A DNA stretch of 64,000 nucleotides from Chitinivibrionia bacterium (GTDB lineage Bacteria; Fibrobacterota; Chitinivibrionia; Chitinivibrionales; Chitinivibrionaceae): the NCBI GenBank assembly GCA_009779925.1, contig WRAZ01000008.1, positions 1-64,000 of the forward strand, written 5' to 3'. Made by a program: the position numbers and the translations under genes. Below the pieces are notes generated by a model. The model was not told the DNA's origin. It did no database searches and worked only from the letters and a program-made list of their open reading frames with translations. This document shows positions 31,850-39,610 of the stretch, in pieces. Within the stretch, counting starts at the first letter, position 1. Each line of letters begins with the position of its first letter.

Positions 31850-32818
31850 TCAACGAACTTCAGCAAACGCGTCGGGCTCTTTTTTCAGCAGGTCGTCGAA
31901 ATATGCCGCTGTGTATTTCAGTCCTTCTTCGAGTTCTATTTTTGGCGTCCAGTCCAATTCTCTTTTTGCCAGAGAGATGTCGGGTTTGCGCTGTTTGGGG
32001 TCGTCGCTCGGCAGGTCGCAATATATTAGTTTTGATTTTGAATTTGTCGTTTCTATCACCTTTTTTGCGAGTTCGAGGATGGTAAATTCGTTGGGATTTC
32101 CGATATTTACGGGAGCGGCATAATTACTTTCCATAAGTCGATACATACCTTCAAGCAAGTCGTCGCAATAGCAGAAAGAACGCGTTTGGTCGCCTTTTCC
32201 GTATATTGTTATATCTTGATTACGAAGCGCCTGAACTATAAAATTGCTCACAACCCGTCCATCGTTGGGGTGCATCCGAGGTCCGTATGTGTTAAAAATT
32301 CTGATAATGCGAATATCGACTTTGTTTTGACGGTGATAATCGTAAAAGAGCGTTTCGGCAATGCGTTTTCCTTCGTCGTAGCAACTGCGAATACCTATCG
32401 GGTTCACGTTGCCCCAATAAGTTTCCTGTTGCGGATGAAATTCGGGCAGAGGGTCGCCGTAAATTTCGGAGGTGCTTGCCTGTAAAACGCGCGCTTTCAC
32501 TCTTTTTGCAAGTCCGAGCATATTTATTGCGCCCATCACGCTTGTTTTCGTGGTTTTTACGGGGTTGTACTGATAGTGAATAGGACTTGCCGGACACGCC
32601 AAGTTGTATATCATATCAACTTCGAGCATAATCGGATTTGTAACATCGTGGCGAATAAATTCAAAGTTGTCATAATTTTTCAGATGAATTATGTTTCGCT
32701 TGTTTCCCGTGAAAAAGTTGTCCAAGGCAATAACGCTATGCCCCATTTTAAGTAATTTTTCGCTCAAATGCGAACCCAAAAATCCCGCTCCACCTGTAAT
32801 CAATATTCTTTTTGACAT
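31850..32818 (-). CDS. UDP-glucuronate decarboxylase (UXS-type NAD-dependent epimerase)
   Basis: A 322-residue short-chain dehydrogenase of the UXS group, which converts UDP-glucuronate to UDP-xylose for surface polysaccharides. The NAD loop [11 protein letters not shown] lies at 8-18. The UXS-typical '[25 protein letters not shown]', '[11 protein letters not shown]', '[19 protein letters not shown]' (catalytic Tyr and Lys in YxxxK) and '[21 protein letters not shown]' are all present. No UDP-glucose dehydrogenase gene is adjacent. It lies 15 bases downstream of a tiny membrane-protein gene and may be co-transcribed with it. Confidence 0.92.
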
Positions 32819-32833
32819 TTTATACCTTTCGTT

Positions 32834-32959
32834 TTATGCTGTTGCTACCGCTAAGCCGTTGCCAATTTTGCCATATTTAAGGTCTTCAAGTTTTATCCAC
32901 ACAAGACACGCTACTCCAAATGCAGCTGCTCCGCCGCCTATAATAAGAAACCCTTCCAT
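32834..32959 (-). CDS. Tiny single-pass membrane protein, cassette A second gene
   Basis: A 41-codon frame whose ATG overlaps the stop of the preceding tiny gene (TAATG). The product has one hydrophobic segment (GFLIIGGGAAAFGVACLVWI, residues 3-22), then a charged stretch KLEDLKYGKIG, and ends NGLAVATA. Its end resembles that of the second gene of cassette B (NGGLATA) although the rest differs. No family recognised. Overlap coupling, a shared tail and a repeated two-gene plan argue that it is real. Confidence 0.6.
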   Translation of the reverse strand: MEGFLIIGGGAAAFGVACLVWIKLEDLKYGKIGNGLAVATA

Positions 32960-33150
32960 TATTCGCCACCTTTCAAAATAAAACCTAACAAAAAGAAAAA
33001 CAACACAAGAGCTAAACCTACTCCCGCTAAATACAAATCTTGCCCTGCTCCCAAAACATTAAACATAACACCGCCAACAAAAGCACCGCCACTAAGGACA
33101 TTAAACCAAGCAGCTAAATGTTCGCGCCGTCCTTTACTCCAAAACTTCAT
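32959..33150 (-). CDS. Small two-pass membrane protein, cassette A first gene
   Basis: A 63-residue protein with a basic N-terminus (MKFWSKGRREH), two hydrophobic segments (about 18-34 and 42-58) and a short charged tail (LKGGE). The start is the ATG preceded by AAGGAG 7 bases upstream; a frame six codons longer has no site. It resembles the first gene of cassette B in size, topology and position directly after a copied terminator-promoter block. Function unknown; small two-pass proteins of this kind occur as uncharacterised families in Bacteroidota and relatives. Confidence 0.65.
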   Translation of the reverse strand: MKFWSKGRREHLAAWFNVLSGGAFVGGVMFNVLGAGQDLYLAGVGLALVLFFFLLGFILKGGE

Positions 33151-33172
33151 AGCAAATCTCCTTTTCAAATAA

Positions 33173-33187
33173 AAAATACGTTATGCC
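33173..33187 (-). promoter_or_regulatory. Promoter-like motif before cassette A
   Basis: On the minus strand it reads GGCATAACGTATTTT, 22 bases before the cassette A start, a variant (AACGTATTTT) of the window motif. Confidence 0.45.
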
Positions 33188-33275
33188 AAAACAAAAAAGG
33201 GGAGGCAAAAATTCGCCTCCCGCTTTTTTATTGAAACACACTCAAACAATTATCTGACAATTATTTGTCTAACCA
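33183..33275. repeat. 93-bp direct repeat, copy A (deacetylase 3' end, terminator, promoter edge)
   Basis: Matches 33898-33990 at 91 of 93 positions in the same orientation, 715 bp apart. On the minus strand it carries the last codons of the deacetylase gene (VRQIIVR-stop), its terminator and the start of the promoter motif. Confidence 0.9.
33192..33221 (-). terminator. Rho-independent terminator, copy A
   Basis: On the minus strand GGGAGGC/GCCTCCC stem followed by a run of six T. Identical to the terminator of the adjacent deacetylase gene. Confidence 0.8.
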
Positions 33276-33276
33276 T
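33250..33276 (-). pseudogene. Remnant of a deacetylase gene 3' end
   Basis: Only the last seven codons (VRQIIVR and TAA) of a sorting-tail protein remain, joined at the point TGGTTAGACAA to unrelated sequence. The neighbouring intact gene ends VRQVIVR. This shows that a larger unit was once duplicated here and mostly deleted. Confidence 0.7.
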
Positions 33277-33328
33277 TATGCTATTACCTTAACTTATAAA
33301 AATGGAAAATTTTGCAAAAGATAACTGA

Positions 33329-33493
33329 CTATCGCAGTGCGTCAATGTCTTCTTTTTCAACATAATATCCGAGTTGGAGTTCAATGCTTCCTGCAGAATG
33401 AGCCATAGTCAAGTTCTTATTTATTTGAGGATGATATGCCTTAATATCTCGAAAACCCAAGAAATCTTTAAAGGAATTAACTACAAAGTTCAT
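33329..33493 (-). CDS. Small hypothetical protein, 54 residues
   Basis: A 54-codon frame with GGGGAG 7 bases before its ATG, located between cassette B and the repeat copy A. The product starts MNFVVNSFKDFLGFRDIK and ends in an acidic stretch, KEDIDALR; it has no membrane segment. No family recognised. It is probably read from the same transcript as cassette B, which ends 51 bases upstream. The strong ribosome binding site is the main support. Confidence 0.45.
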   Translation of the reverse strand: MNFVVNSFKDFLGFRDIKAYHPQINKNLTMAHSAGSIELQLGYYVEKEDIDALR

Positions 33494-33544
33494 AATAATC
33501 TCCCCGTATTTTTAATCTAACACGAAACTCATTTGCCTCTGCTT

Positions 33545-33661
33545 TTATGCTGTTGCTAATCCGCCGTTTAAAATTATGTCTCTGCGCTCTATTGCTACAA
33601 AAAAAGCACCAATAACAACAACACAAAGAAACACGACCAAAACCGTAGTACCGAAACTCAT
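33545..33661 (-). CDS. Tiny single-pass membrane protein, cassette B second gene
   Basis: A 38-codon frame whose start overlaps the preceding stop as ATGA and is preceded by GGAGG within the upstream gene. The product has one hydrophobic segment (residues 6-23), then IERRDI and a tail NGGLATA. Size, coupling and tail match the second gene of cassette A. Function unknown. Confidence 0.6.
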   Translation of the reverse strand: MSFGTTVLVVFLCVVVIGAFFVAIERRDIILNGGLATA

Positions 33662-33864
33662 TTTTTACCTCCTTTTGAAGATAGTTTGTCAAATACAAAT
33701 CCACTAATCAAAGAAACCGACGCGACTATTATCGCTACTATAAAATCACCATCGGTTATTTGCGCATTTCCTGCGCTGACAAACAAGCGACCAACAATAA
33801 CTGTTGCAAATACAAATCGCGACAAATCAAAAAGCAAGCCTGCCAATCTTTCACTAAAACCCAT
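33658..33864 (-). CDS. Small two-pass membrane protein, cassette B first gene
   Basis: A 68-residue protein with an amphipathic N-terminus (MGFSERLAGLLFDLSRFVF), two hydrophobic segments (about 16-30 and 42-58) and a basic tail KLSSKGGKK. The start is the ATG with GGAGGG 5 bases upstream; the frame continues 15 codons farther without a site. It sits right after the deacetylase terminator and a GGCATTTAGTATTTT motif. Topology matches the first gene of cassette A. It recalls small uncharacterised two-pass proteins of Bacteroidota, but no function is assigned. Confidence 0.65.
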   Translation of the reverse strand: MGFSERLAGLLFDLSRFVFATVIVGRLFVSAGNAQITDGDFIVAIIVASVSLISGFVFDKLSSKGGKK

Positions 33865-33887
33865 CAAAACCCTCCACTTCCAAACAT

Positions 33888-33902
33888 AAAATACTAAATG
33901 CC
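33888..33902 (-). promoter_or_regulatory. Recurrent promoter-like motif before cassette B
   Basis: On the minus strand GGCATTTAGTATTTT, 23 bases before the cassette B start; identical to the argB copy. Confidence 0.55.
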
Positions 33903-33990
33903 AAAACAAAAAAGGGGAGGCAAAAATTCGCCTCCCGCTTTTTTATTAAAACACACTCAAACAATTATCTGACAATTACTTGTCTAACCA
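33898..33990. repeat. 93-bp direct repeat, copy B
   Basis: The second copy of the block at 33183-33275, here attached to the intact deacetylase gene. It spans the last codons, the terminator and the edge of the promoter motif. Confidence 0.9.
33907..33936 (-). terminator. Rho-independent terminator of deacetylase 1
   Basis: On the minus strand GGGAGGC/GCCTCCC with a seven- to eight-base loop, then CTTTTTT-like T run, about 30 bases after the stop at 33965. Confidence 0.85.
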
Positions 33991-36676
33991 ATTGCTGATT
34001 GTTGTTTACGCCTTGAATTCTTACAACGTGGACGCCTCTTGCAAGGTTGTTAAGGTTAAGCGTATTCATACCTGCAGAAAGAGTTTCTCCTCTGAAAGAT
34101 TGAATTTGGCGACCGTTTACAGTGTAGATACCGATGTTGTATGTACCTGCTTGAGCGATGTTCAAACGAAGGCTGTTTGTTGTAAGTCCTGCGATTGAAA
34201 GCGCACGAGCGCCTGCTCTGCCTACTCTGTTGGTAATACCTGCAGGCGGTGGCAAGTCATCTGCGTCCCACTGAAACGGAGTTCCTCTGTGGATTACGAT
34301 GTTTGCAAAGTGAAACCCTAATTCAAAATCAGTAAGTCTCTCAGCAAAAGTCGGGGTCTGACCATGAAGAGGTGTAACGTTTGCCGGTGCGAGCGGAGCG
34401 ATTTCAATTCCGACAATATCCGCAGGGTTAATCGACGAATAGTTTCTTGTGCCCTCAAAATACTGCTCAAAGTCAAACGAAGTAAGCGGAATCATACCTG
34501 AAGCGCGCAAGTTGTCTGCGTCATTCGTACCGGTTCTAGGCGTTTCAAAGTTGGTATTCTCAATTCCGTTCCAACCAATCTGTGGAAATCTGTGCGCCAG
34601 AATAACTTCACGAACAGGTAATGCATTACCGTCTGCGTCTTGTCTTATCAAACGAACTGCGGTCGCTGTGCGTGAACGATAACTAAGTGAAATGTGCGTC
34701 ATATCATTGTATGTACCGCGCGCAAACGAATGTACAAATTTCGGTTGCTGACCTGCTCTGTTCGGACCTGCGGTCAGGAATTGCTGACCTGTTCCCAATT
34801 CTGTGCCTTCGTTATTTGCGTCTCTCCACAAAGTGAAACTGCTGTTTGCAATAGGTGTTTGTCTTGTTGCCGCTGCTTGACCCGCCGTATTCATTGCATT
34901 TACCGCCGCAATCAACTCTTGCCCTGTTACAAACTGCACTGCTTGTCTGCCTCTCGGACCTGCGTTAAGTGGGTCAACTTGATTGCCGGGATTGTTCAGC
35001 CCCAATGCCCAGTTTACCCATTGTTCCGTTGCTGATATACGGTCTCTCCAAGTGTTTCTTGTAAGTACCAAGCCGTAGTCGTTTCGGTTAAAGTCGTTAA
35101 GCAATGTTCCGTTGTCGTAAATCGGCGTATAGTAGTCGGTGTGAGTTCCCCAGTTGAAAGGCGCTCTGTTTCCGCCCGGTCCCATACGCAGGTTTATTGT
35201 GTTTTGCAAAGTTGCAACAAATTGTGCGGGGGTCATAGCGTGGTGAACAAACAAGTTAAAGTCAAACGCCGTAATTTTTCCGTCCCAAGTCGAAGCGTCT
35301 CTGTCAGGCAATTCGCTTTTACCGCCGGCTCTGAGTGCTCTGTTAATCATATTCCAGTTATCGGTAACTCCCTGTCTGTGAGTTTCGGGAACAATAACTA
35401 CGTTAAGCGGAATTTCCCAAAGACCTGTGGGCATTGTGTCAAGGAAAACGCGTGCGCCTCTGTCTGCTTGTGTCCAAGAATTACGGTTTCCGTTGTCGAG
35501 AGTGTGGGGCCACAAGAAGTTCTGACCTGTTACGTGCATTTCGTGTCCGTCTTCTAATGTAGAAGAGTAGAGATAGCCTTGTGCTTTAAGCGCAAAGAAC
35601 ATATTTGAGTTGCTTTCCAAACGAGGCGCTCTCCAACCGCGAATAGCCGCCGCGCCCAAATTTGCGCCGCCTTCTCTTGAATCACCGCCATTACCTCTTT
35701 TAATCCAGTCATCGGAAAGGTTAATAGCGCCTCTCCAAGCGTTAAAGCTCAACTGACGACCTGCAAATGCTCTCCAACCACGATTAAGGGAAACGCCCGT
35801 CATACCCCATTCTGTGGTTCTGTTGATAACTTGTCCCCAATCCGTGGTGTCAAGTTCCTCTTGGTTTGTAAATCCTTCACCACCCCAACGTCCGAAACCG
35901 AGGGCAGCATCCTTGTGGTTTCCGCCAGGGATCCAAGAATTTGCTTCCATATGGTCAAGCGAGTGGTTAGCAATTTCGTGATGTCTTTGCATCGCAGCTC
36001 TTGTAACAGCGTAAATGGTGTTGTTTTGAGTAACCGTACCTCCGCCATCTCGCGACCCGTGTTCACGTCCCCAAGCAACAGCGGCAGTTTCGTATCCGCG
36101 CTGTTGTGCGTCGGACGCATTAGGGTTTACGACAGGGTCGCCAAGTTCTTCACCAGTGAACCAGCCCAAAGCGGAGCGAGTACTTTGCCACGGCTGTACG
36201 CCTGTTGCCGCCCACGAACGTTCGCTCCACACATTAACATAAAAACCCGCAAGCATAAAATAAGTCATTCTGACTTCTTCTGGAAACGCTCTGAGCGACC
36301 AACTCATACCCATCATAATTTGATTGCCCGTAGGATTGCTTTCAACAATGTTAAAAGCATTAGGTCTGCAAGCACTCCATACAGTGGGAGTCGGCACACA
36401 AGTAGGACCAAACACACCCGGTGCACCGGGTTCGGGGCTACGCCAACCTACAAAATGCTGTTGCGCAAATGTTGCGCCGGGCTCCGTCTCATATCCTGTT
36501 CCTGTCATCCCTGAGTACGCGTTGTCGTCCCAAGTAATTGCAATAAATTGCGGCACCTGATTAGCAGGTCTTCCAGCAGGGTTCCACGGTGAGGGGAACG
36601 TGAATTGAGCCTGTCCCATCACTGTTGCGGCTAATGCTAAAGTAGCTCCTACCGCCAAAATTGATTTACGTCTCAT
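33965..36676 (-). CDS. Exported NodB-type polysaccharide deacetylase 1 with sorting tail
   Basis: A 903-residue secreted protein. The signal peptide is MRRKSILAVGATLALAATVMG. The NodB-like catalytic region shows the metal/catalytic Asp pair in TWDDN (D50-D51), the metal-binding H238-S-L-D-H242, an Arg motif RAPRLE near 350 and GTHTDYYTPIYD near 545. NodB enzymes remove acetyl groups from chitin, peptidoglycan or xylan; the substrate here is unknown. The last 65 or so residues form a beta-rich tail (AGTYNIGIYTVNGRQIQSF ... VRQVIVR) like type IX sorting domains. The start has AAGAGG 8 bases upstream; a 31-codon longer frame would bury the signal peptide. It is paralogous to the genes at 37007 and 54220. 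Confidence 0.85.
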   Translation of the reverse strand: MRRKSILAVGATLALAATVMGQAQFTFPSPWNPAGRPANQVPQFIAITWDDNAYSGMTGTGYETEPGATFAQQHFVGWRSPEPGAPGVFGPTCVPTPTVWSACRPNAFNIVESNPTGNQIMMGMSWSLRAFPEEVRMTYFMLAGFYVNVWSERSWAATGVQPWQSTRSALGWFTGEELGDPVVNPNASDAQQRGYETAAVAWGREHGSRDGGGTVTQNNTIYAVTRAAMQRHHEIANHSLDHMEANSWIPGGNHKDAALGFGRWGGEGFTNQEELDTTDWGQVINRTTEWGMTGVSLNRGWRAFAGRQLSFNAWRGAINLSDDWIKRGNGGDSREGGANLGAAAIRGWRAPRLESNSNMFFALKAQGYLYSSTLEDGHEMHVTGQNFLWPHTLDNGNRNSWTQADRGARVFLDTMPTGLWEIPLNVVIVPETHRQGVTDNWNMINRALRAGGKSELPDRDASTWDGKITAFDFNLFVHHAMTPAQFVATLQNTINLRMGPGGNRAPFNWGTHTDYYTPIYDNGTLLNDFNRNDYGLVLTRNTWRDRISATEQWVNWALGLNNPGNQVDPLNAGPRGRQAVQFVTGQELIAAVNAMNTAGQAAATRQTPIANSSFTLWRDANNEGTELGTGQQFLTAGPNRAGQQPKFVHSFARGTYNDMTHISLSYRSRTATAVRLIRQDADGNALPVREVILAHRFPQIGWNGIENTNFETPRTGTNDADNLRASGMIPLTSFDFEQYFEGTRNYSSINPADIVGIEIAPLAPANVTPLHGQTPTFAERLTDFELGFHFANIVIHRGTPFQWDADDLPPPAGITNRVGRAGARALSIAGLTTNSLRLNIAQAGTYNIGIYTVNGRQIQSFRGETLSAGMNTLNLNNLARGVHVVRIQGVNNNQQLVRQVIVR

Positions 36677-37006: not shown

Positions 37007-39610
37007 ATGAGAAGTAAAACTATTTTAGCGGTGGGGGCTACTTTAGCGTTAGCCGCAACGGCGATGGGGCAGGTAAACTATGCGTTCCCATCACCTTGGA
37101 ACCCTGCGGGGAGAAGCGCGAGCGAAATGACACAGCTCATTATGTTCAGCTGGGACGACAACGCGTATTCGGGGGCTCGCGGAACAGAATACGAATGGCG
37201 CGCATCTCCGACATCTCCGATTACAGCCAATTTTGTTGGTGGAGAAATGCCGTCTTGGATAGCGGGAACAGCCAACGCCGGAAGATTGGAAGGTTTTACA
37301 GGCGGGACGTTCCAAAATACTATGGGGCTTGCGTGGGCTTACAGAGCTCTTGCGAGAGGTGAGGCTATAACTGCGGGCGGAGCGCAGGGGTCAGGTATTC
37401 CTATGGTATTTAATATGATTACGGGACTTTTTGTTGACAGAGAATCGGGAACTTGGAATAATGCTCAGTCTGTGTTAGGGGCGTTTAGACCATCTGCTCA
37501 AGAAAGCAGCGCTCACCAACGGATCGCTGTTACTTGGGGAAGAGAGTTTAACTCTAACTCAGGCGGAGCATTCAACACTAACCAAATTTCTGCGGCTGTT
37601 AGAAGACTTGTAGCTGCGGGTAGTGAAATCGGCAACCACACTATTGACCACATGGAATCTAATTCTCCGCTTGTAGGACCAAGCGCTCAATTCCAAGGTA
37701 TGTCGGAAAACAACAGGACTATTTCCGCCGGCGGACGGACTTGGCAGCTTGGATTTGCCAACTGGGATAACGAAGGTTTCAGCACGGCAAACGACAACGT
37801 AATGAATTGGGGTGTCAGCATACGCGAATCTACGGAGTTTGGACAGGCTGTCGGGCATACGGCTCAAAGCCGCGGCTGGCTTATTTTTGCAGGTCGTCAA
37901 ATATCTCAGGATGCGTGGTATCAATATATTCGTTTCTCGGAATTATTTTTATTGTACGGTGGTGTGGGCTGGAGTTCCCCGCAAGTGCCGAGAGCGCAGC
38001 TTCAGGGTTTCCGCGCTCCCCGCTTGGAAGTAAACTCCAATTTGTTTTACGCGCTTAAAAGAGCAGGATATACTTACGATATGGGCTTAGAAGAAGGTTA
38101 TGAGTGGCACAGAACAGGTCATAACTTTCTTTGGCCCTATACTTTCGACAACGGGGTTCAAAACTCTTGGACTCAATTCAGCAGCGGAAACAGAGTGTTC
38201 GTTGATTCAACGCCCGACGGGCTTTGGCAGCTTCACGTATCTCCTGTTATAGTTCCTGCAAATATCCGTTCGGATGTTTGGAGCAATCACGCGGCAATTA
38301 TGGCAGGCTCAGGCACGCCCACAACAGCTTCGGACAGAGACCACTGGCTTCAGCACGGTAAAGTAACAGGTTTTGACTTTAACACTTGGATACTTTACGG
38401 TATGACCGGAGCAAACTGGCAGGCAACTATGCGCCACACACTCGATTTGCGTATGTCGGGAAACAGAGCGCCTATGCAATTCGGTTTACACACGGATTAC
38501 TATACTCCGATTTACGACTTTGCTACTTTGTTAAACGACTTCAACAGACCGGGCTGGGGACAACCTGTTGTACAAGGCTGGAATACTTGGACAGTTCGTC
38601 AGAGAGAAACGGAAGATTTTGTTAACCACGCATTGGGTCGGCAAGCGCATTTTGTAACAGGCATACAACTTATCGACAGTATGAGAACTTGGGTTGCATT
38701 AGGAGAAGCAAGAGCACAGCATATACTTCCCGCGTCCGCATTACCAAACGAGTGGACTTGGGTTTCAAATCAGCCAAACGATGCTAACAACACAACAAGC
38801 AGAGCACTTAACAATCTGAGCGGCGATATTCGTATTCAATCGACATTTGCTCCCGACCAACCTCGTTTCGTTATTAACTTTCCCGCGGGAACGTTGAACA
38901 GCGCAACGCACATACAACTCGATTACAAACAAACAAGCGCTTCAATGATTCGTTTGATTACAGAGGACGGCAGAGCTCGCGAAGTAATGCTTGCACACCG
39001 CTTCCCAATTCAAAGCAATCACGAAAATCCCGGCATCGACAACGGTAATTTCGGCAGAGCGGAGTTGCGTAATTCGGGAATGATACCGATTTCAGCCTTT
39101 GACTATCCGCCGGAAGTTGATCATCCGATGGATTACGCATCGGTGAACGTATCGCAAGTTATTGCTATTGAAATTCAACCGCTCGCACCTTACGCAAGAC
39201 CCATAGCATTCGGACAGCCGGGTTGGTCTAACGTAGTAAGAACCGACCCGTGGGAAGCAAGATTTGAGTTCAGAAACTTCAGAATTCATACCGGACAACC
39301 TTTTGATTTCGGCGGAGTTGACCCGATTGACCCTGTCAGCATAGGCAGAGCAAACAGAAACGTTGCACGCGCGCTTTCCATCGCAGGAATTACCGGCAAC
39401 GCACTTAACCTGAACATTGCTCAAGCAGGTACATACAATGTGGGTATTTACACGGTAAGCGGTCGCCAAATTCAGTCTTTCAGAGGACAAAATCTTTCTG
39501 CAGGTATGAATACGCTTAACCTTAACAACCTTGCAAGAGGCGTACACGTTGTAAGAATTCAGGGTGTAAATAACAATCAGCAGTTGGTTAGACAAGTAAT
39601 TGTCAGATAA
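37007..39610 (+). CDS. Exported NodB-type polysaccharide deacetylase 2 with sorting tail
   Basis: An 867-residue paralogue of the divergent gene at 33965. The signal peptide is MRSKTILAVGATLALAATAMG. The NodB-like residues are SWDDN (D50-D51), H211-T-I-D-H215, RAPRLE from R336, and GLHTDYYTPIYD near 500. The last 65 or so residues are nearly identical, in DNA as well as protein, to the tail of paralogue 1, whereas the middle has diverged. Likely exported to the cell surface through the same route and acting on an acetylated polysaccharide. TAGAGG lies 7 bases before the ATG. A terminator follows 35 bases after the stop. Confidence 0.85.
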   Translation: MRSKTILAVGATLALAATAMGQVNYAFPSPWNPAGRSASEMTQLIMFSWDDNAYSGARGTEYEWRASPTSPITANFVGGEMPSWIAGTANAGRLEGFTGGTFQNTMGLAWAYRALARGEAITAGGAQGSGIPMVFNMITGLFVDRESGTWNNAQSVLGAFRPSAQESSAHQRIAVTWGREFNSNSGGAFNTNQISAAVRRLVAAGSEIGNHTIDHMESNSPLVGPSAQFQGMSENNRTISAGGRTWQLGFANWDNEGFSTANDNVMNWGVSIRESTEFGQAVGHTAQSRGWLIFAGRQISQDAWYQYIRFSELFLLYGGVGWSSPQVPRAQLQGFRAPRLEVNSNLFYALKRAGYTYDMGLEEGYEWHRTGHNFLWPYTFDNGVQNSWTQFSSGNRVFVDSTPDGLWQLHVSPVIVPANIRSDVWSNHAAIMAGSGTPTTASDRDHWLQHGKVTGFDFNTWILYGMTGANWQATMRHTLDLRMSGNRAPMQFGLHTDYYTPIYDFATLLNDFNRPGWGQPVVQGWNTWTVRQRETEDFVNHALGRQAHFVTGIQLIDSMRTWVALGEARAQHILPASALPNEWTWVSNQPNDANNTTSRALNNLSGDIRIQSTFAPDQPRFVINFPAGTLNSATHIQLDYKQTSASMIRLITEDGRAREVMLAHRFPIQSNHENPGIDNGNFGRAELRNSGMIPISAFDYPPEVDHPMDYASVNVSQVIAIEIQPLAPYARPIAFGQPGWSNVVRTDPWEARFEFRNFRIHTGQPFDFGGVDPIDPVSIGRANRNVARALSIAGITGNALNLNIAQAGTYNVGIYTVSGRQIQSFRGQNLSAGMNTLNLNNLARGVHVVRIQGVNNNQQLVRQVIVR

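Follow-up and report, generated by a model that had tools for sequence, protein, structure and literature searches.

Two pairs of tiny membrane-protein genes behind near-identical flanks in a Chitinivibrionia genome: evidence for a genus-specific family of probably exchangeable intergenic cassettes

The window analysed here comprises 64,000 nucleotides of a contig from a Chitinivibrionia bacterium (genome G000). On its minus strand, two pairs of very small, overlapping membrane-protein genes (pairs A and B) lie between a gene for a UDP-glucuronate decarboxylase-like epimerase (UXS) and a gene for an exported protein with a sorting tail (Table 1). The epimerase orthologue in the sole congener compared, G001 (WRFX01, the MAG Chitinivibrionia bacterium Mp193P3bin36), is 91% identical, has no pair in front of it and occurs in a different gene context. 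The sorting-tail protein gives a sub-threshold Por_Secre_tail match at its exact C-terminus (20.5 bits, cut-off 27, in Pfam; 17.3, cut-off 23, in NCBIfam). The initial annotation called this protein a deacetylase. That label is weak: profile searches find no deacetylase match in the product of 33965-36676, and only its paralogue at 37007-39610 has a match to Polysacc_deac_1, itself sub-threshold (20.8, cut-off 23.1). The two paralogues are divergently transcribed and have C-terminal tails that are about 90% identical, with different terminators. Behind pair B lies a third small gene, orf54, whose weak relative in G000 (contig C31, region L157, 1872-2018) is also located downstream of a sorting-tail gene; the two possibly form a separate small-gene family. 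No Rfam family was found at the locus.

Table 1. Features of the locus (coordinates in the window).
Feature	Coordinates	Strand	Description	Basis or relatives
UXS	31850..32818	-	NAD-dependent epimerase (UDP-glucuronate decarboxylase-like)	15 bp downstream of pair A
Pair A gene 2	32834..32959	-	41 aa, one membrane span, C-terminus ...NGLAVATA	family comparison
Pair A gene 1	32959..33150	-	63 aa with two membrane spans; terminal KGGE coincides with the gene 2 Shine-Dalgarno	paralogues on C19 and C16 at 60-62% identity; dN/dS 0.12 vs C19a
Pair A promoter motif	33173..33191	-	TTTTGGCATAACGTATTTT, genome-wide promoter type	motif search
Block A	33183..33275	-	93 bp (sorting-tail remnant of 8 codons, terminator, edge of the promoter), probable flank copy	between orf54 and pair A; 91/93 to block B
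Terminator, copy A	33193..33221	-	hairpin and T run	sequence
orf54	33329..33493	-	54 aa, small cytosolic protein encoded downstream of pair B	weak relative on C31, tblastn E 0.003-0.02
Pair B gene 2	33545..33661	-	38 aa, one membrane span, C-terminus ...NGGLATA	family comparison
Pair B gene 1	33658..33864	-	68 aa, two membrane spans	58% identical relative on G001 C55; weak DUF6722, 16.2 bits, cut-off 27
Pair B promoter motif	33888..33906	-	TTTTGGCATTTAGTATTTT, edge falls inside block B	motif search
Block B	33898..33990	-	same 93 bp, at the exported gene's genuine 3' end; precedes pair B	sequence comparison
Terminator, copy B	33908..33936	-	hairpin and T run	sequence
Exported protein with sorting tail	33965..36676	-	3' end supplies block B	profile searches

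Each pair is preceded by one copy of a 93-bp block. The two copies agree at 91 positions, exactly as first described, and match with E 7.6e-43 in a blastn search of the whole G000 genome, far above chance. Beyond 33183, similarity of block A continues at about 70% as far as 33163, so that the extended segments (33163-33275 and 33878-33990) are identical at 105 of 113 positions. On the minus strand, each block contains the end of the sorting-tail frame (...VRQ[I/V]IVR and stop), a terminator hairpin (GGGAGGC-GCCTCCC) with its T run, and the motif TTTTGGCAnnnnGTATTTT; behind it lie a ribosome-binding site and the two small genes, which overlap. The match, and the coupled tiny membrane pairs behind it on the minus strand, are real beyond doubt. 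The remnant of the exported gene in copy A, given as seven codons, actually has 8, from the ATG to the last Arg before TAA.

The promoter-like motif noted in each block is indeed present, but it is not specific to the blocks: TTTTGGCAnnnnGTATTTT occurs 202 times in G000 at <=2 mismatches, compared with 56 matches for the reversed control. In the window (33173-33191) and genome-wide it often stands directly 3' of a terminator T run, and it follows no standard sigma-70 or sigma-54 pattern; a sigma-54 promoter was dropped as a candidate because the -12 GC is absent. A role as a special recombination site was likewise rejected, the motif being an ordinary, frequent promoter of G000. Recurrence of the block or of its arrangement elsewhere in G000, a check proposed in the initial annotation, was not observed. 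A genome-wide blastn search of G000 finds no third full copy, and none of the 12 other sorting-tail genes of this genome (paralogue 37007-39610 included) has the same terminator and a tiny pair, their terminators and neighbours being unrelated. One of these 12, on C31, has a convergent tiny pair nearby.

Pairs A and B almost certainly belong to a genus-specific family of two-gene units that are true coding genes. Protein and profile searches recover about 26 units in G000 (2.5 Mb), dispersed over the genome and all different, and about 13 in G001; both assemblies are drafts, and G001 is a metagenome bin. The same pair close to thrS appears on both G001 C41 and C54, which probably are redundant contigs or variants from different strains. 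Relatives of the pairs were found in the congener only when the species genome collection was searched, and there are no convincing members in 166 other Fibrobacterota genomes. At a permissive threshold, 18 of the 166 gave matches: a single one reaches E<=0.001 (6e-4, with an internal stop codon), and the others are weaker than E = 0.004 and mostly lie within long unrelated frames. Some gene 1 copies of G001 pass the cut-off of DUF6722 (PF20482, 27 bits), namely C76 (40.9), C55 (33.8) and C108 (34.9); in the window, gene 1 of pair A has no match and that of pair B stays below the cut-off. DUF6722 resembles family gene 1 in size and two-span layout. Its description, however, includes neither a coupled gene 2 nor copy number nor exchange, all of them features of the tiny pairs, and a literature search found no paper on its function.

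The architecture of the units is uniform. Gene 2 lies downstream of gene 1 in 36 of the 38 loci of the two genomes, and start, stop, overlap and frame recur across these 36 units of two species. By hydropathy, gene 1 has two predicted spans (33/38) and gene 2 a single one (36/36); in 35/36 the positive charges lie behind this span, which by the positive-inside rule puts the gene 2 C-terminus inside the cell. In 26/36 units the two genes share 4 or 1 bp. A Shine-Dalgarno sequence precedes gene 2 in 32/36 by a strict pattern and, with AGGCGG in the other 4, in 36/36 by eye; translated in the gene 1 frame, this site (AAAGGnGGn) gives the recurrent C-terminal KGG(K/E). The promoter core is found within 75 nt of the pair in 30/38 loci, compared with 7% of random 75-mers. 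Most changes fall in third codon positions and dN/dS is about 0.12-0.27 where computable; therefore the tiny pairs are real genes under purifying selection. A lack of conserved start, stop and reading frame in relatives had been named in the initial annotation as a refuting result; the recurrence of all three upholds the presence of a tiny overlapping membrane pair, on the minus strand, behind each block.

The C-terminus of gene 2 is a further common feature. It often reads LATA, and the rest of the gene 2 sequences are very different. The last residue is Ala in 19/35 compared with 20/364 in the background, and an L-x-[TAP]-[AV]-like (LxTA-like) end occurs in 12/35 compared with 1/364, both being counts from homologues and thus not independent. 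Since varying codons encode this end, it is conserved as protein. The tails resemble the ssrA (tmRNA) tag of G000 itself, AEDYSYAVAA, which ends in YAVAA. Possibly, then, gene 2 is recognised by a protease and short-lived owing to an ssrA-like C-terminus.

How the blocks and the pairs came to stand together was first explained by duplication of one unit, in which the sorting tail, terminator, promoter and tiny pair were copied together and the pairs diverged afterwards. Blocks that are 98% identical with a pair behind each, gene 2 products ending in LATA or VATA, and 18 of 20 bases in common at the gene 2 3' ends are all in keeping with such an event. The pairs themselves are not. Their products share 29% (gene 1) and 37% (gene 2) identity, the family median for gene 1 being 26%, and third codon positions are saturated in within-family comparisons, whereas the blocks, non-coding sequence included, differ by 2%. 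In the tree, pair A groups with C19a, C16, C43 and C1a (bootstrap/aLRT 100/98) and pair B with G001 C55a, C4r, C39 and C9 (98/95). The nearest relative of pair B thus belongs to another species, so that A and B diverged before the species did. Tree and divergence lead us to reject the unit duplication, barring hypermutation of the pairs, and we give it hardly any weight.

A different relation between pairs and flanks emerges when the family is considered as a whole. The 400 bp before and after each of 36 pairs were compared, with 184 other genes as background; the latter came from the window and from the surroundings of pairs and are not a random sample of the genome. Locus-specific direct repeats of 48-130 bp enclose 6/36 pairs (window B, C39, C1a, C19b, G001 C91 and G001 C98) and 2/184 other genes (Fisher p = 3e-4), and usually contain the terminator or promoter of the locus. 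The two background genes with such repeats encode Rpn/PD-(D/E)XK nucleases; the repeat around one of them has pair C42 inside it as well, raising the count to 7/36. At 29/36 pairs no flank repeat is detectable by this comparison. A HEPN/MNT toxin-antitoxin module between perfect 23-bp direct repeats (G000 C40:16508-17232) resembles a smaller version of the pair flank repeats.

Different pairs also occur between near-identical flanks, in five cases. Pairs C30a and C30b share 226 bp upstream at 99% and 60 bp downstream at 98%, and their gene 1 products are 33% identical. For G001 C55b, C108 and C183, the upstream flanks are 87-96% identical and gene 1 21-42%; the downstream flanks, located within a common third gene, are 85% (C183/C55b), 91% (C108/C55b) and 68% (C108/C183) identical. 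On C19, two pairs of different clades have a common gene 2 start and 3' hairpin module. The third gene behind the three G001 pairs (C55, C108, C183) encodes about 117-128 aa with the motif DFxxFLxxxRxxPxMSxxALK, and its product has a sub-threshold FF-like domain match (24.9 bits, cut-off 27).

Because flank repeats exist and different pairs occupy the same flanks, block A is best read as a copied slot flank. We consider it probable that the blocks arose by duplication of a slot flank and not of a whole unit, and the "shrunken deacetylase" of copy A is then best read as the edge of that flank. The idea of exchange against a fixed module, raised in the initial annotation, thus survives in altered form: the exchanged part appears to be the tiny pair, against an upstream terminator-promoter flank, and not the exported gene. 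No empty allele of the window slot is available, UXS being in another context in G001, and we therefore infer insertion at this slot from the repeat.

The distribution of the pairs along the chromosome points in the same direction. Orthologues of eight genes next to G000 pairs were identified within the 1.5 Mb of G001 that the comparison covered, and a pair stands at the same place in 0/8. In a slot next to a Ham1 homologue (C10), G000 has a pair and G001 a YoeB toxin match preceded by a small gene. Regions with pairs also contain MNT/HEPN, YefM/YoeB-like, DUF4160 and Rpn genes, a co-occurrence for which enrichment is not claimed, and Rpn genes adjoin several pairs.

Taken together, mobile, exchangeable two-gene accessory cassettes at intergenic slots are the best full explanation of these data, one we hold with moderate confidence; that the cassettes are mobile at all is well supported by the comparisons of flanks and neighbours. 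Each cassette would consist of a constitutive-type promoter followed by a two-span gene 1 and a translationally coupled one-span gene 2, and would occupy an intergenic slot, typically behind an intrinsic terminator. Entry of a cassette, or the joining of two slot alleles, may duplicate 50-130 bp of the local terminator/promoter flank, leaving the cassette between direct repeats. At the window, blocks B and A would be the two flank copies around pair B and orf54, and pair A a cassette that stood already, or arrived separately, behind the same flank. Cassettes may further be exchanged between slots through common flanks. The unit encodes no mobility enzyme; copying might proceed by template switching or homologous recombination, a mechanism that we infer, as we do the direction of insertion.

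Several other readings have to be weighed against exchangeable cassettes. The most serious one, though still unlikely, is an old tandem array with gene conversion, in which the neighbouring pairs are old and only a terminator-promoter segment was recently copied between them, anchored in the common promoter motif. The window block does end at this motif, which is common genome-wide, and a duplicated Rpn nuclease region (G000 C30:12393-15078), 76-87% identical, adjoins the 226-bp stretch at 99%, as expected of a conversion tract. On the other hand, the single pairs C39, C1, G001 C91 and G001 C98 are also bracketed and have no second pair to convert. An assembly artefact that joined two strain alleles in a metagenome bin is very improbable. 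Although the assemblies are drafts and a repeat of 93 bp exceeds many assembly k-mers, the copies are distinguished by two sites and by their flanks, a misjoin at the repeat should leave one pair and not both, and the pattern recurs at several loci of two independent assemblies.

The remaining readings concern what the pairs are. They might simply serve the genes beside them as leader peptides or small accessory subunits, duplicated repeatedly and without a role in conflict, as is suggested by the several pairs that stand on the same strand directly before housekeeping-type genes (UXS, GGR reductase, thrS, glycosyltransferase). Orthologous neighbours in G001 lack a pair, however, and many pairs come with a promoter and terminator of their own and are convergent to their neighbours, which makes this reading rather improbable. 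Less credible again is the scattering of phage-derived lysis (holin/antiholin) or moron genes by prophage remnants. The start of G000 C19 (1-4000) is a prophage remnant with a phage-type integrase, small phage-like frames and two tiny pairs; its contig-start frame resembles the start of an M15-type endolysin by eye and runs off the contig. Very weak PHROG matches (holin, E 0.39; "moron" membrane protein, E 0.0039) also lean towards phage. Against this, the endolysin fragment has no Pfam match, the remaining pairs have ordinary chromosomal genes on either side, and no relatives were found in phage, plasmid and viral-contig collections.

Among the closest known systems are type II toxin-antitoxin modules (Phd/YefM-YoeB, MNT/HEPN), which also comprise two small overlapping genes under one promoter, are intergenic and are patchy between species. 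The tiny pairs share the general toxin-antitoxin layout, being small overlapping two-gene operons that are patchy and apparently mobile. Unlike type II modules, however, both products are membrane proteins, there is no homology, and a toxin role is putative. A type I system was rejected, since the promoter core is antisense in 1/38 pairs and sense in 19/38, a count that covers this promoter type only. PADLOC defence models match neither gene 1, gene 2 and orf54 nor the third gene (g3). Transposons and insertion sequences were dismissed as well: the unit encodes only the pair (and orf54), and the repeats are 48-130 bp long, direct and locus-specific. An integron cassette does not fit because comparing the flanks of 38 pairs with one another, all against all, reveals no 3' site common to all loci, nor does a phage lysis cassette, with no holin above noise and no endolysin at the window locus. 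The pairs recall phage morons in that a short unit with its own promoter and terminator stands between unrelated genes, and two copies lie in a prophage remnant; they differ in that almost all copies are chromosomal and have long locus-specific flank repeats.

The Rpn/YhgA-like nucleases (PF04754, PF12784) offer another parallel, as two Rpn genes of G000 have the same kind of long flank repeats; the pairs, in contrast, encode no nuclease. In enterobacteria, two divergent versions of rpnC entered the panC-panD intergenic slot independently, and the same study proposed that cleavage by Rpn promotes joining through primer-template switching (PMC5350276). Rpn genes are of the intragenic toxin-antitoxin, anti-phage kind, and part of their sequence is highly variable (PMC10327210). 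By analogy, primer-template switching could also leave flank duplications, and a role of Rpn nucleases in moving the pairs may be conjectured.

The apparent mobility of the pairs, their high variability under purifying selection, their own promoter, the neighbouring genes and the gene 2 tail together suggest a tentative guess at function: a membrane toxin-antitoxin-like or phage-exclusion pair with a conflict-type role, which we think possible but not probable. More doubtful still is the full proposal that these are undescribed mobile membrane conflict modules, each with a two-span effector and a one-span partner bearing a C-terminal degron, whose multiplication and slot swapping within one termite-gut genus, by a copying process, leave 50-130-bp flank duplications with no transposase of their own.

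Genes of this size are often missed by annotation, and about 26 diverse, selected copies in 2.5 Mb represent a heavy investment. The occurrence of different cassettes in the same flanks is a natural experiment on how modules enter intergenic slots and are replaced there when no dedicated recombinase is involved. Should the pairs prove to act on phage or as toxin-antitoxin systems, they would constitute a sizeable new membrane family of this type and provide a first testable role for DUF6722.
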